Shown here: positions 26,191 through 34,822 of the stretch, one piece after another
How the letters are laid out: each line of letters opens with the position of its first letter
Numbering within the stretch: the first letter of the stretch is position 1
Virus record (IMG/VR): IMGVR_UViG_3300008450_000115
Span: 1-40,152 of that record
DNA from: a virus
Length of the DNA: 40,152 bases
Strand: one strand, 5' to 3'
The notes under the pieces: model-generated
What the model was told of the DNA's origin: nothing
Databases searched by the model: none
Seen by the model: only the letters and a program-made list of their open reading frames with translations
Made by a program: the position numbers and the translations under genes

Positions 26191-27102
26191 ATGGGAGGAA
26201 ATGTATTTGGAAATACGGCATCAATAAAGAAAGAGGATATAAAATCTACTCTAAAGGAATTTATAAGGCAATTTAAAACTCTATTTCCTAAAGCAGAACC
26301 ACATTTTTCAACAATGAAAACATTAGGATCTGTAGGGAAAAAAGATGTATCAGGAGATATAGATCTTGCTTTAGCAGGATCTTCTTTTGACGATGTTGAT
26401 GACTGGGGATTAGATAGAGATCATATCATGAAGTTGTTTCAAGGATTCAAGAAAAGAGCTAGAACTTCAACCGATGATCAGTTAATGAAAAGAGCAGTGG
26501 TAGTTGCTGTTGCACAAAAAATTAACGATGCAAATACAGAGATAATAGCTGATATAAAAGGATCAGGAGCAGGTACTCTATTCCTTTTATTTCCTCAATA
26601 TACTCCATCTAGAGAAACAGTAGGAGATAATGTACAAATTGATATAAACATCGGTGATGTAGATTGGCTAGAATTTGCTTACTACTCAGCAACTTACCAA
26701 GGAAATGTAAAAGGACTACATAGAACACAACTACTTGTATCACTATTCTCACATAAAGGGTATACATTCTCTCATAACTATGGAGTAAAGAGTAAAGAAA
26801 CTCAAGAGATAGTAGCAAATACACCGGATCAAGCAATTGCTCTGTTGAATAAACTATACGGAACTAATCTAGATAGAGACACATTATCAGATTACTTTAA
26901 GTTGATTGATGCATTAAAAAATGAATTATCTGAACAAGACCTTCATGCAGTATATGATACTTATTTGAAGATATTAGATTCAACCAGAGCAGATATCCCG
27001 GAAGATCTACAACAATATTGGATAGATAATCAAGATAGATTGCAACTAAAAGGTAAATTCCTTCCAGACGAATCTAAATTAATACCATATAAAATAGCAT
27101 AA
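26191..27102 (+). CDS. Nucleotidyltransferase (Pol beta superfamily)
   Basis: A 303-residue protein with the Pol beta nucleotidyltransferase signature: Gly46-Ser47 (TLGSVGK), Asp56 and Asp58 (SGDIDLAL) and a third Asp151 (VQIDINIG). These bind the two metals and the incoming nucleotide. The C-terminal half is helical and unfamiliar. It is clearly related to the first domain of the gene at 27760 (shared IxKxDVxxT start, GSV and DxDL spacing). A homing endonuclease gene separates the two. The target of nucleotide transfer (RNA, protein or small molecule) is not apparent. Confidence 0.75.
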   Translation: MGGNVFGNTASIKKEDIKSTLKEFIRQFKTLFPKAEPHFSTMKTLGSVGKKDVSGDIDLALAGSSFDDVDDWGLDRDHIMKLFQGFKKRARTSTDDQLMKRAVVVAVAQKINDANTEIIADIKGSGAGTLFLLFPQYTPSRETVGDNVQIDINIGDVDWLEFAYYSATYQGNVKGLHRTQLLVSLFSHKGYTFSHNYGVKSKETQEIVANTPDQAIALLNKLYGTNLDRDTLSDYFKLIDALKNELSEQDLHAVYDTYLKILDSTRADIPEDLQQYWIDNQDRLQLKGKFLPDESKLIPYKIA

Positions 27103-27103
27103 T

Positions 27104-27763
27104 ATGACTGGAATCTATAAAATAACAAATCCAAAAGGAAGAGTATATATAGGTCAAGCTGTAGATATCGAAAAGAGATTGAGAGATTATCAAAAAGCGA
27201 AATGCAGTAGCCAGAGAAGGTTATATAACTCTTTTGTAAAGTATGGCACAGATAACCATATTTTTGAGATAGTTGAACAGTGTAATATTGAGTTACTCAA
27301 TGAACGTGAAAGATATTGGCAGGAGTACTACGATGTACTATCTAGGCAAGGTTTAAATTGTAAACTAACAACCACAGCTGATAAATCAGGAGTACATTGT
27401 GAAGAAACAAAAAAAAGACAATCCAAGGCAAATATAGGAAAAATAATCTCAGAAGAAATAAGGTTAAAAATAAAAAATACACTAAAAGGAAGAATACCGG
27501 TAAATAAGGGAACTAAAGGACTATACACACAAACAGAAGAGTCAAATACTAAAAGATCCATATCAGGAAAGCAAAGTAGCACGGTTTCAAAAAAAATAAT
27601 ACAGTATACAAAGAAAGGGCATCCAATCAAAGAATGGAGTAGTGCAAGAGAAGCAGGATTATACTTCAGCAAATACTCAGGATCTGCAATTATAGAGTGT
27701 TGTAAAGGAAAAAGGAAAAGTATTTATGGGTTTATTTTTAAATATAAAACAGAAGTAGAATGA
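27104..27763 (+). CDS. GIY-YIG homing endonuclease with NUMOD domains
   Basis: A 219-residue free-standing homing endonuclease. Residues 3-17 hold GIYKITNPKGRVYIG with Arg25 following; catalytic Glu is in the NERERYW segment. Residues about 95-135 contain two NUMOD3-like DNA-binding repeats (EETKKRQSKANIGK, SEEIRLKIKNTLKGR), and the C-terminus is a NUMOD1 helix-turn-helix (KKIIQYTKKGHPIKEWSSAR, then AGLYFSKYSGSAIIECCKGK). Such enzymes cut phage DNA at a site near their own gene and spread by repair. It lies one base after one nucleotidyltransferase gene and overlaps the start of its paralogue by four bases. Confidence 0.9.
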   Translation: MTGIYKITNPKGRVYIGQAVDIEKRLRDYQKAKCSSQRRLYNSFVKYGTDNHIFEIVEQCNIELLNERERYWQEYYDVLSRQGLNCKLTTTADKSGVHCEETKKRQSKANIGKIISEEIRLKIKNTLKGRIPVNKGTKGLYTQTEESNTKRSISGKQSSTVSKKIIQYTKKGHPIKEWSSAREAGLYFSKYSGSAIIECCKGKRKSIYGFIFKYKTEVE

Positions 27764-29814
27764 GTGGTGTTGCAGGGGGTACCCGTATACAAAAAGCAGA
27801 TGTACAAGCTACATTCAATAAGTACGTAGACCAGGTACTAAAAACGATTCCTGGATTTAAAAAAGCTTCTCTTTCCGGATCTGTAAAAGCAGGTTCAAAA
27901 GCAGATTATGGTGATTTAGATTTAGTAATATGGTTTGAAGGAGATGATAAAAGGGAGGTAAAGCAGAGAATTATTGATGCAATAAGTAAACTACCTTCCG
28001 ATGTTATTGTCCCTTTTAAATCAGAAAAATATACCGGAAAAAAGTACTATAACTCAGGAGAACTTATTTCTGTACTTTTTCCTATAGAAGGGAAACAAGA
28101 TGAATATATTCAAGTAGATAATATTATTGCTCTTACTGAAGAAGAACACACCTTTAAAGAATCATTCCTAGATCTTCCAGCTGAAAAACAGGGATTGTTA
28201 ATTGGATTAGCAAAGGTAATATTAATAGAGCAAAATCCTGAGGAAGTATTCCGAAGAATGGGCATTACAAATGTACCTGAATTAGCAAAAGATGAAGAAT
28301 TTGAGTTTAATCTATCATCAGTAAAACTTACTTTAAGAAAAGTTAAATTAGATAATTTTAAAGAAGTAGCTAGAGAAGATATCTGGAGTTCAGCAAATTG
28401 GGGTCAAATAAAGATACTATTTAAAGGATTTAACATAGATGGCTCTTTTGAGGATCTATTAGATGATATTGCAAGAAAATTAACTAATCCAAGATCAAAA
28501 AATAGAATAGCAGGTACCTTTAAAAGTATGATCTCTGTTAAATCAGGAGAGGTAGGAACACCGAAAGGAAAAGATAAAGAAGCTGCACTTGAAAAAGTAG
28601 CACAAACTCTATCTGAAGCATTAGATGAGCAATCAAATACAGTGGCGTTATATGCTGGAGGATTTAAACCACCCCATAAAGCACATTACGAAAACGCTAA
28701 ACTATTATCTCAAAATACAGATAAATTAGTTATCTTTATAGGACCAAAAGTAAGAGAAGGGGTAGAAATTACTGCACAGCAATCTAAAGCCATTTGGGAA
28801 ATTTATGCAAAATACCTAGCAACTCCAGTGGAAATACAGATAAGCCAGGTAACTCCTATTAAGGATACATACGATTGGGTTGATCAAAATCAAGATAAAG
28901 TAGATAAGATCATTACAGGAACAGTAGCTGATGAGAGAGGTAAATTTAACTATTTTACAAAAAACAAAGACAAATATCCTAAAGTAGACTTAATTGACCT
29001 ACCTGTTATTGTAGCAAAAGAAGATGGTAAATTTTCAGCAACTGAGATAAGAAGGTCGGAAGAATACCTATTATCAGGAAAATGGATACCATCTGTTATA
29101 TCAAAAGAAGATAAACAAACAATAATAAATATAGTGACTCCAAAATCAATAGAAGATAAAATGTCGGATAGTATAGAAGAATTATTTAATAACTTCTTCC
29201 CAAAAAAAGTAGTAAAAGAAGGATCTTCAGGAACTCCAATAGCAGCATCATCTGCAATTCCTTCTGCCGATAGAGCAGAATTAAACAAGCTATATGATGA
29301 CCTAAAACAGTATGTACCTGATGAAAGATTTAAAATAGACTTCCAGCAAGATAGAATTGTAATTACTAATAGGATAGAGAATCCGATAAGTTTTGACTAT
29401 ACACCATTTCAAGGGAAATTAACAGAGAATGAAGAAAGTGACTTTGATTTTACGCCATATATAGGTTCAATATTAGAATATATGCTTGATCAAAAGATGA
29501 AGATAACACCTCTTCCTGATATCAAAATCAAGAAAGATCCACAACAAGCAGGTACGTTCTTTGGAAGGACAGCATACTACAGTCCAGACAGTAGAGAAAT
29601 TGTTTTGTACACTTTAGGTAGACATCCAAAAGATGTAGGTAGATCATTTACACATGAGATGATACATCACATGCAAAATCTAGAAGGTAGATTGGGTAAC
29701 ATACAAACAACAAATACTAACGAAGATTCACATCTACAAGAAATAGAAGACGAGGCATACTTGCAAGGGAACAGAATATTTAGAAATTGGGAAGATAAGC
29801 AAAAGAATGGATAA
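27760..29814 (+). CDS. Three-domain fusion: nucleotidyltransferase, NMNAT-like, zincin
   Basis: A 684-residue protein. Domain 1 (1-240) is a Pol beta nucleotidyltransferase with Gly40-Ser41, Asp52, Asp54 and Asp120. A linker at 279-290 contains LSE and LDE (TLSEALDEQS), which look like prohead-protease sites. Domain 2 (295-465) is an HxGH-type nucleotidyltransferase: GGFKPPHKAH at 300-309 and SATEIRR at 426-432, as in NMN adenylyl- or cytidylyltransferases. Domain 3 (about 500-684) ends with HEMIHHMQ (His632, Glu633, His636) and EIEDEAYLQ, a zincin metallopeptidase pattern. The combination is unusual. The 5' end overlaps the homing endonuclease and the 3' end overlaps another HExxH gene by eight bases. 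Individual domains are well supported; joint function is unknown. Confidence 0.75.
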   Translation: MSGVAGGTRIQKADVQATFNKYVDQVLKTIPGFKKASLSGSVKAGSKADYGDLDLVIWFEGDDKREVKQRIIDAISKLPSDVIVPFKSEKYTGKKYYNSGELISVLFPIEGKQDEYIQVDNIIALTEEEHTFKESFLDLPAEKQGLLIGLAKVILIEQNPEEVFRRMGITNVPELAKDEEFEFNLSSVKLTLRKVKLDNFKEVAREDIWSSANWGQIKILFKGFNIDGSFEDLLDDIARKLTNPRSKNRIAGTFKSMISVKSGEVGTPKGKDKEAALEKVAQTLSEALDEQSNTVALYAGGFKPPHKAHYENAKLLSQNTDKLVIFIGPKVREGVEITAQQSKAIWEIYAKYLATPVEIQISQVTPIKDTYDWVDQNQDKVDKIITGTVADERGKFNYFTKNKDKYPKVDLIDLPVIVAKEDGKFSATEIRRSEEYLLSGKWIPSVISKEDKQTIINIVTPKSIEDKMSDSIEELFNNFFPKKVVKEGSSGTPIAASSAIPSADRAELNKLYDDLKQYVPDERFKIDFQQDRIVITNRIENPISFDYTPFQGKLTENEESDFDFTPYIGSILEYMLDQKMKITPLPDIKIKKDPQQAGTFFGRTAYYSPDSREIVLYTLGRHPKDVGRSFTHEMIHHMQNLEGRLGNIQTTNTNEDSHLQEIEDEAYLQGNRIFRNWEDKQKNG

Positions 29815-30181
29815 ACAGGTTATAGAAAGTTTAGCAGAAGTATACATAAATAAGATACAGGAACATTATGGCATGAGTAAACATCATGCCACCTTCCCCT
29901 ATATATACGTCGAAAATAGTCCGTATAGTGACGCAGAACATAAGACCTTAAAGGGAGAATTCTGCCATATGGAAAATGATATTACAATCTATTGGAAGAA
30001 TATAAAAACAGAAGAAGACCTGATAAGAACATTAGTTCATGAATATCAACATTACCTACAATCTCCAGCTTGGATGACAAGATTCTACAGACAAGGACAT
30101 AGTTATGAAAGTCATCCTTACGAAATACAAGCAAGAGAAGAAGAAGAAAACTGGAATAAATTTAAAATAAACAGGTTATGA
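29807..30181 (+). CDS. Small zinc metallopeptidase-like protein
   Basis: A 124-residue protein with HEYQH at 78-82 (LVHEYQHYLQSP) and a downstream HPYEIQAREEE where Glu106 may be the third zinc ligand, the arrangement of minimal zincins. Only about 45 residues precede the conserved core. It overlaps the upstream gene, whose last domain has a similar HExxH and E-x-A pattern, and the next gene by four bases. The N-terminus (VIESLAE) also fits a capsid-targeting shape weakly. It may cleave a host or virion protein; the target is unknown. Confidence 0.7.
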   Translation: MDKQVIESLAEVYINKIQEHYGMSKHHATFPYIYVENSPYSDAEHKTLKGEFCHMENDITIYWKNIKTEEDLIRTLVHEYQHYLQSPAWMTRFYRQGHSYESHPYEIQAREEEENWNKFKINRL

Positions 30182-30765
30182 TAAAATCATTAAAAGAGTT
30201 ATTACTCACAGAAGAAGATTACTATCCAAAATATCAAATCTATTGTGATATGGATGGGGTATTAACAAATTTTGAAAAGAGATTTGTTGATGAACTAAGA
30301 AGAGAAGGTCCTAAATACTACTCAAAAGAAGTAATAAGTCAAGTAACAAGGCCAAAGCATTTTGAAAAACTAGAAGGAGAAACAGAATTTTGGCGTTTTA
30401 TAGATGAATTAGGTCCTGATTTCTGGGCAGGAATGGAATGGATGCAAAATGGAAGAGCATTATGGTCTTTTATAGAACCATACAATCCAATAATACTTAC
30501 TTCTCCTTCAAAACACAATGCTTCAAGATTAGGAAAAAGACTTTGGGTAAAAGAACACCTAGTTCCTGCACCGCCTGTAGAATTTAGATTTGGAGAAGCT
30601 AAGTCGGATTTTGCAAATGAAAATGCTATATTAATAGATGATAAGCCTTCCAACCTATCTGCATTTGCAGGTAAGGGAGGAATTGCATTAGAGGTAAAAG
30701 ACGGAGAAATCCAATCAGTTATAAACAAACTAAAAGAGTTAGGTTATGGGCGAGAGCTTACTTAA
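30178..30765 (+). CDS. HAD-family phosphatase with CTS-like N-terminus
   Basis: A 195-residue HAD-fold hydrolase. Motif I is CDMDGVLTNF (Asp24, Asp26), motif II is ILTSPS, the conserved Lys is in GEAKSDFA, and motif IV is ILIDDKPSN. This resembles 5'(3')-deoxynucleotidases. The first 13 residues, MIKSLKELLLTEE, are an amphipathic extension ending LTE before the domain, as in capsid-targeting sequences. It overlaps both neighbours (ATGA upstream, 20 bases downstream). It may dephosphorylate nucleotides; if packaged, it would act at the start of infection. Confidence 0.8.
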   Translation: MIKSLKELLLTEEDYYPKYQIYCDMDGVLTNFEKRFVDELRREGPKYYSKEVISQVTRPKHFEKLEGETEFWRFIDELGPDFWAGMEWMQNGRALWSFIEPYNPIILTSPSKHNASRLGKRLWVKEHLVPAPPVEFRFGEAKSDFANENAILIDDKPSNLSAFAGKGGIALEVKDGEIQSVINKLKELGYGRELT

Positions 30766-33076: not shown

Positions 33077-34822
33077 ATGAAGAAATTAATGCAATTACTA
33101 GAATCGGGAGAAAAAACAGCTTTTATAAATAGTAAAGCTGTACAATATACAGACGAGAAAGAATTACAAGACCTAAAAGATAACCCAGATGTTAAGACAA
33201 TATCAACAGCTCAAGGTAAAAGAATAAAGGAAGAAGCTGGAAGAAAATATACTGCAGAAGAATCCCAAGCAGTTGGTAAAACTGTAGGTAAATCTTTACT
33301 TAAAGTATTAAGAGGACAAGGAGATGAAGTAGTTGATATAAGACTTACAGGAGTAGGACTTAATAAATTCGGAATCAAAGTAAAATACGGTAATGACAAA
33401 GGTAAAGATACTTTTAGATTTACTTTAAATCCAGATACAGAAGATATTACTTTAGATCTAGGAAGAGGTAATCATGAACAACTTGTTGACTTTGTGATAA
33501 CACAAGGAAACACCGTATCTCTCCCTACTCCGGAATTAGAAGATAAACTAAGTGATGCTATGAAGAAATATACGTCAGAACCAACAGATGCTGAGTATGA
33601 TCAAATGGCTGCAATGGAACCTGAATTAGATCCATCACAGATAAACAAATATATTTCAGAAGGAGTATTAGAAGAAAGAACTTTTACTATAAATGGATTA
33701 GGTAACTTTGAATTTGCAGGAATGAAAGATGACTTAGTCATGGGATCTCAAAACAATGGACCTGTTAGAAGTTTTAAAAGAGAAAGAGTTTTACAAGACA
33801 ATCCAAATTTCTTTGATAGACAACCAAGAGAGAGAAAACCACAAGGAGTTCGTCCTTATACAGAAGCACAATATTGGAAAATATTACAAGGAGCAATCGA
33901 TGATGCTGGTAGTACAGAATTTGCATATGATATAGCAGAATCCATGATATTAGATCCTCAGATTTTAGCTAGACTTGCAAAAGAGTATCCTGGAGAATCA
34001 GCTAGAAAATTACAGCAAAGACTTCAATGGGATTTAGAGGCATGTGATGCTCCTGATGATGACTATGAAGATGAAGTAGATGAAACAACAAAACACGTAG
34101 GAGGTAAATACGTAAATTATCCAGAAAAAGGAGGGAAAAGATTAGGTACTTTTAATACTAAATCAGCAGCCCAAAAACAATTAACAGCTATTGAAATCAG
34201 TAAACATAAAAACGAAGCTCTTGACCCAGTTGGAAAAGAAGATGACGATATTAACAACGACGGAAAAGTGGATTCAACAGATAAATACTTAACAAAAAGA
34301 AGAGAAACTATCTCACAAAATATAGATGAAGTAACAAACCCAGAACTTACAAAATATGTAAATAGATTTGTAGGTGGATTAGCAAAAATGTATGATTATT
34401 CAACCCAGGATGCAGTATATGCAATAATGGGAGTATTGAGATCACAAGGATGGAAAGGGTTAAACGAGGATCTAGACTTAGGTCATGAAGATGATGAGCC
34501 AGGAATGTTATTAGGAGATATCTACGGTATAATGCAATCAGCAAAAAGTCTATACGAATTAGTAGCACAGTTTGAAGGACAACAAGAAGTAGATTTTCCA
34601 CATTGGTGGCAAGCAAAAATTGTCAATGCAAAAGCAAACTTATCTGCAGCAAGACAGTATTTAGATTATGAAGTAAACAAACCACAAACACAGGTAGTAG
34701 TTGCACACTTAGGAGAGGCAAAAGGTACTTGTTGTCATAAATGCGGACACGTTCATGTAAAAGGAACTGCACACCCAACACCGTATCTAACAGGTCAAAA
34801 AAATTGTAAATTTAGAGACTAA
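33077..34822 (+). CDS. Mosaic protein with CTS-like start, EF-hand loop and zinc knuckle
   Basis: A 581-residue modular protein. It starts [11 protein letters not shown], with LLE at 7-9. Modules in order are an N-terminal beta region (about 60-150), a helical block with [20 protein letters not shown] (about 258-325), a [20 protein letters not shown] segment, a perfect EF-hand/dockerin-type calcium loop (Asp391 to Asp402, [12 protein letters not shown]), a helical [20 protein letters not shown] module with PHWWQAKI, and a C-terminal Cys cluster (CCHKCGHVH). I recall several of these modules as separate proteins in environmental phages. It is probably a processed head cargo or scaffold protein. 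It is coupled by TAATG to the next gene. Confidence 0.6.

Follow-up and report, generated by a model that had tools for sequence, protein, structure and literature searches.

The locus described here raises the question why a virus should carry several biochemically disparate enzyme domains in a single polypeptide, and in which form these domains would act. It is located in a window of 40,152 bases, the whole stretch of DNA that was analysed, which is an IMG/VR fragment of a T4-like phage related to Flavobacterium phage immuto and whose 3' limit lies directly past the large terminase gene; the hosts of these viruses are Flavobacterium-type bacteria. An open frame with an ATG start (27760..29814, + strand) encodes a protein of 684 aa, in which a preliminary description had recognized a Pol beta nucleotidyltransferase, an HxGH nucleotidyltransferase and a zincin, and indeed all of the residues quoted for these domains were found at their positions. 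The isolated phage immuto encodes the same protein (70% identity), extended there to 907 aa by a second, downstream HExxH module (HEIEHLT), and the full-length fusion is present in dozens of IMG/VR contigs. The concern that an assembly or frame error had joined separate genes is therefore ruled out by the immuto isolates and these independent contigs.

Named-phage homologs of the fusion, of the adjacent gene NTase2 (see below) and of a leader-bearing HxGH protein were found in immuto isolates only. A cellular origin was rejected, with no relative of the Pol-beta domain in the genome contigs searched at the sensitivity used, and PADLOC returned no match, so that assignment to an anti-phage defence family is not supported. 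In profile searches the window protein alone stayed under every curated cut-off. AlphaFold2, run on 88 aligned proteins taken from the window and the loci, predicted confident globular domains (mean pLDDT 87.4) at a pTM of 0.51, which is the expectation for flexibly joined domains; residues 465-467, 480-496 and 540-558 fell under a pLDDT of 50.

The first domain (residues 1-262; 27760..28545, +) is a Pol-beta nucleotidyltransferase. Its motif positions (GS 40-41, D52, D54, D120) were confirmed, the three aspartates and G40 being invariant among the relatives and S41 varying, and the GS...DxD...D signature together with the palm fold places the domain in the Pol-beta nucleotidyltransferase superfamily. 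The Pfam model DNA_pol_B_palm is passed by the relative L056 (26 bits, cut-off 25), and Foldseek against the PDB retrieved family-X polymerases (E 1.8e-6, TMt about 0.5). The preliminary description had overlooked a second nucleotidyltransferase next to the fusion, NTase2 (303 aa; 26191..27102, +), which begins with M↓GGNVF (here and below, ↓ marks a boundary after Met or Glu) and in which GS46-47, D56/D58 and D151 are invariant (alignment A5). Its AlphaFold2 model reached a pLDDT of 93.0 and a pTM of 0.86, and Foldseek matched it to Pol lambda (E 6.7e-5, low TM). The palm and the catalytic triad are common to the fused domain, NTase2 and family X (Pol beta/lambda), but at about 12% identity and a TM of 0.5 or lower, so that a DNA polymerase cannot be deduced from the match. 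In the window, the two nucleotidyltransferase genes are separated by an ORF for a GIY-YIG homing endonuclease (27104-27763), which is absent in immuto.

The second domain (residues 294-460; 28639..29139, +) adopts the HxGH adenylyltransferase fold. The motifs GGFKPPHKAH at 300 and SATEIRR at 426 were confirmed, and the GxFKPP(H/T)xxH core as well as R431 are invariant among the relatives. Pfam CTP_transf_like (PF01467) scores the window protein at 14.5-17.5 bits, under the cut-off of 21 bits that the relative L077 clears with 31 bits, and from this relative and the retained (H/T)xGH and SATxxR motifs we conclude that the domain belongs to the HxGH superfamily. It shares the fold and the GxFxPxHxxH and SATxxR motifs with the NMNAT, PPAT and HxGH proteins of PF01467, but it reaches no curated subfamily cut-off. 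The top Foldseek matches in the PDB were PPAT structures (E 2.3e-5, TMt 0.63). Since the catalytic residues are conserved, the Pol-beta and HxGH domains are both likely to be active enzymes, as far as can be judged from sequence.

The third domain (residues 488-684; 29221..29811, +) is a zincin-like metallopeptidase module, in which HEMIHH 632-637, E663 and E665 are invariant among the relatives (alignment A3). It has the HExxH helix and the conserved downstream Glu in common with M91, DUF6782 and IrrE-N-like zincins, but the sequence matches are only sub-threshold: the Pfam zincin families M91/DUF6782/PipA gave weak matches without reaching a cut-off, and a sequence search of the PDB with this module yielded no match. 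The structure matched viral-library models of IrrE-N-like zincins only (TMt 0.71 over 119 columns). Of the two folds on which the preliminary description had staked its reading, the HxGH fold was thus recovered by AlphaFold2 and Foldseek (PPAT), and the zincin fold more weakly by viral-model matches; a zincin-like fold is supported by the models, not proved. A small zincin-like ORF (HEYQHYLQ, 124 aa; 29807..30181, +), conserved among relatives and with no named-phage homolog found, overlaps the end of the fusion.

Four viral scans and a module search yielded 142 non-redundant related ORFs in 26 architectures. The modules were seen alone, paired, duplicated or with further modules between them, and in some relatives (L053, L022 and L051) they are split into adjacent ORFs. 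One fused ORF (L232:4339-6852) combines a different HxGH module (GRFQPFGKHH), which has relatives in Microcystis phage Mel-JY01, with NTase2 and Pol-beta, and xNE↓ marks both of its boundaries.

The preliminary description had suggested that the prohead protease cuts the protein at LSE/LDE sites. These candidate sites, LSE286↓A and LDE290↓Q, are located in an inter-domain helix (about residues 268-290; 28561..28629, +), which according to the model and the linker comparison lies between the Pol-beta and HxGH domains and resembles an internal capsid-targeting leader. The description had missed a further candidate site ahead of the zincin, VKE487↓GSSGTP in the second linker (residues 464-487; 29149..29220, +), a region of low pLDDT that corresponds to junction J2. 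We scored a strict motif, [LIVM]xE[AGSN], at three junction types in comparison with domain cores and found a density of 3.2-4.9 per 100 residues in linkers vs 0.31 inside domains. The strict motif was present in 37/46, 37/38 (junction J2) and 29/31 distinct linkers, compared to maxima of 19, 20 and 9 in shuffled sequences, counts which are not independent as the sequences are related. LxE↓(A/G/S/N), the T4 prohead-protease motif, is thus present at nearly every module junction. In the fusions L230 and L232, INE↓GGNVF and LNE↓SGSAGG stand at module starts, the latter matching the M↓SGxAGG start of 69 leaderless Pol-beta ORFs. A third candidate in a zincin loop, LTE556↓N, was dismissed because it is not generally conserved (12/33). 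Cutting by the prohead protease, a secondary idea of the preliminary description, is the best supported of its ideas: the sites lie in the linker between the domains, nearly all relatives have them at this junction, and they match the leaders of stand-alone homologs. Cleavage itself would be the step predicted from them.

The stand-alone versions of the modules often carry T4-like capsid-targeting leaders ending in LxE. Among the leaders of stand-alone HxGH ORFs are MNLGEYLVNLLLE↓E, MNSLVKALIQPILE↓A and MKTFKEYFEQ, and the fusions contain closely similar peptides internally, directly ahead of the HxGH domain (NLGRYLASLLLE↓QDQ, FIVDLIRPILE↓AEIGK). The strict motif in these stand-alone HxGH leaders is not significantly enriched (9/45 vs 5 expected), and the loose form occurs in 42/45 vs 31. 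For NTase2 the correspondence is exact: in all homologs with a leader, E immediately precedes GGN(V/I)F, and 46 homologs that lack a leader begin M↓GGN(V/I)F. The leaderless start in the window and in immuto is genuine, as shown by in-frame stop codons immediately upstream. A general equivalence of M and E at start sites across gene families was not found, since an unbiased scan that covered every start-site difference in the loci revealed no general excess of E (134/1335); the equivalence is exact at the starts of NTase2 and of the fused Pol-beta module. Downstream of the fusion, a 5'-deoxyribonucleotidase assigned by Pfam NT5C (30178..30765, +) begins with the CTS-like leader MIKSLKELLLTE↓EDYYPK, and the NT5C leaders of its relatives contain the loose LxE in 74/76 distinct sequences and the strict motif in 54/76, with a shuffled maximum of 24. 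Further along the window, a 581-aa protein (33077-34822) has a leader, as well as a calcium-loop-like segment that it shares with immuto gp079, and the neighbours at 34822 and 36274 are among several with LxE leaders.

As the window stops short of the protease and major capsid genes, this part of the evidence comes from immuto, whose genome contains both a gp21-type prohead protease (gp070, by annotation) and a gp23-type capsid protein (gp066), the latter with VSE59↓A at a T4-like position. In the complete immuto genome, N-terminal leaders with LxE were found in 16/30 genes of the cargo and head regions vs 30/179 elsewhere (Fisher p 4e-5, a descriptive value, since gene calling followed a simple ORF rule and the choice of regions was made after viewing the leaders). 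The T4 protease cleaves after Glu, and about 10 CTS residues are enough to bring even foreign enzymes into the T4 head (PMC9026906); related giant-phage proteases likewise cleave after Glu (PMC5694885).

Because it accounts for the joints, the leaders and the mosaic at once, the simplest explanation, and the one that we regard as probably correct on present sequence evidence, is that the fusion would be a head cargo polyprotein of T4-like flavophages, which is cut by the prohead protease and ejected with the DNA. During head assembly, the gp21-type protease would cut after E286/E290 and after E487, yielding a Pol-beta nucleotidyltransferase of about 32 kDa, an HxGH enzyme of about 23 kDa and a zincin of about 23 kDa. 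The three fragments would remain in the head, leave it together with the DNA and act on the host as infection begins: the HxGH enzyme would most likely use ATP to adenylylate either NMN, which gives NAD, or a pantetheine-like substrate, the Pol-beta domains could transfer a nucleotide to host RNA, a DNA end or a protein, and the zincin might cleave a host protein. Cleavage, packaging, ejection and each of these substrates are what we infer from the joints and leaders. It counts against this explanation that none of the Pol-beta-led fusions has an N-terminal leader and that 34/76 HxGH-led ORFs have almost none, as do the stand-alone HxGH leaders, in which the strict motif is not significantly enriched, the start-site scan with no general excess of E, and the relatedness of the sequences. 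To our knowledge, targeting in T4 involves N-terminal peptides only, and an internal CTS is therefore unproven; a precedent for it was not found in the literature.

The missing N-terminal leader would fit an ordinary intracellular multi-enzyme protein, whose domains stay fused and work in the infected cell, perhaps beside NT5C in the metabolism of nucleotides or NAD, with the LxE sites as remnants of fused genes that had leaders. The annotation of the fusion as NMNAT in the isolates, the match of the HxGH profile to NMNAT and a NadV gene in one related record would also suit such a role. We nevertheless consider it unlikely, since divergent relatives retain the sites at each of the three junction types and outside the domains, neighbouring genes including NT5C have leaders of their own, and NadV is absent in 5/6 large related records. 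Still less probable, in our judgement, is a polyvalent protein whose own zincin domains, and not the prohead protease, carry out the cutting. Zincins have been proposed as the processing enzymes of polyvalent proteins (PMC5512222), and one to three zincin modules lie within or beside the ORF, but such self-processing does not explain the sites, because similar sites occur in leaders and in ORFs and fusions lacking a zincin (L232, NTase2, NT5C) and fit the T4 protease rule.

The HxGH domain leads to a more specific proposal, which extends the remaking of NAD considered in the preliminary description, namely that it is an NMNAT, delivered by the virion or made early, which repairs NAD against an NAD-depleting defence. 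NARP2, an NAD-rebuilding pair, consists of NadV (PF04095) and NMNAT. That phages rebuild NAD is shown by NARP1 (PMC13232231), the best match of the A1 profile in the PDB is the archaeal NMNAT MJ0541 (2.7e-9), and SATEIRR resembles the SGTEIRR motif of this enzyme. However, PPAT matches the profile about equally well (8.9e-9) and provides the top structural matches, none of the curated NMNAT models was reached (TIGR01527 gives 17.3 bits vs a cut-off of 181.2), the HxGH motif is variable at its third position (G/A/D/S) and is replaced by TxGH in some relatives. An NMNAT/NadR annotation finds no support past the superfamily level. For the remaking of NAD, the leading idea of the preliminary description, the profile matches to NMNAT and PPAT are balanced, and a NadV-type gene was found in 1/6 large related records and is absent from immuto. 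We regard NAD repair as rather doubtful; it concerns the activity of one domain only and is compatible with the cargo-polyprotein explanation. The NAPRTase/NadV-type gene is a 504-aa frame (L318) in the related 157-kb record G005. In immuto, gp100 (L002:9706-10143) is annotated as NAD synthetase, a doubtful annotation given that the protein has only 145 aa and looks by eye more like a GIY-YIG type.

Under the cargo-polyprotein explanation, the head-assembly protease would process a single precursor into several enzymes inside the virion, which would unite CTS cargo with polyvalent proteins, both of them known themes. An LxE joint combined with a leader would then provide a sequence rule by which injected proteins could be predicted across large groups of phages that are uncultured. 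Going one step further, with somewhat less than an even chance of being right, T4-like flavophages may use internal targeting and cleavage segments as a polyprotein platform, in which the sites serve as exchange joints for module shuffling. One gene would then deliver several virion enzymes, and new sets of injected proteins could be built at the sites.

The nearest known concepts are the polyvalent proteins and the internal head proteins of T4. Polyvalent proteins, described in phages and conjugative elements, combine many unrelated enzyme domains, commonly including a zincin, in one polypeptide, and DNA-coupled injection with proteolytic release of the domains, mainly ascribed to the embedded zincins, has been proposed for them (Iyer et al. 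2017, PMC5512222). The fusion agrees with this kind in holding at least two biochemically disparate domains in a mobile-element polypeptide and in the variable architecture of its relatives. The earlier statement that no established system contains this trio thus holds with respect to PMC5512222, but the general kind is already known. Because PMC5512222 restricts the Pol-beta domain to conjugative elements and contains neither an HxGH domain nor a nicotinamide term in its main text, we place the fusion as a variant of the known polyvalent and T4-cargo kinds. In contrast to the polyvalent proteins described so far, it belongs to a T4-like phage and has prohead-protease-type sites and CTS-like leaders at its module boundaries. 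T4 IPI-IPIII and Alt carry a short N-terminal leader ending at the Glu cut by the protease and are ejected as cargo (PMC9026906), a pattern that many of the stand-alone relatives and neighbours follow, their N-terminal leaders running for about 10-20 aa up to a protease site, but that the fusion does not. Whereas T4 thus encodes one cargo protein per gene, each with an N-terminal CTS, the enzymes are fused here and the leader-like segments are internal.
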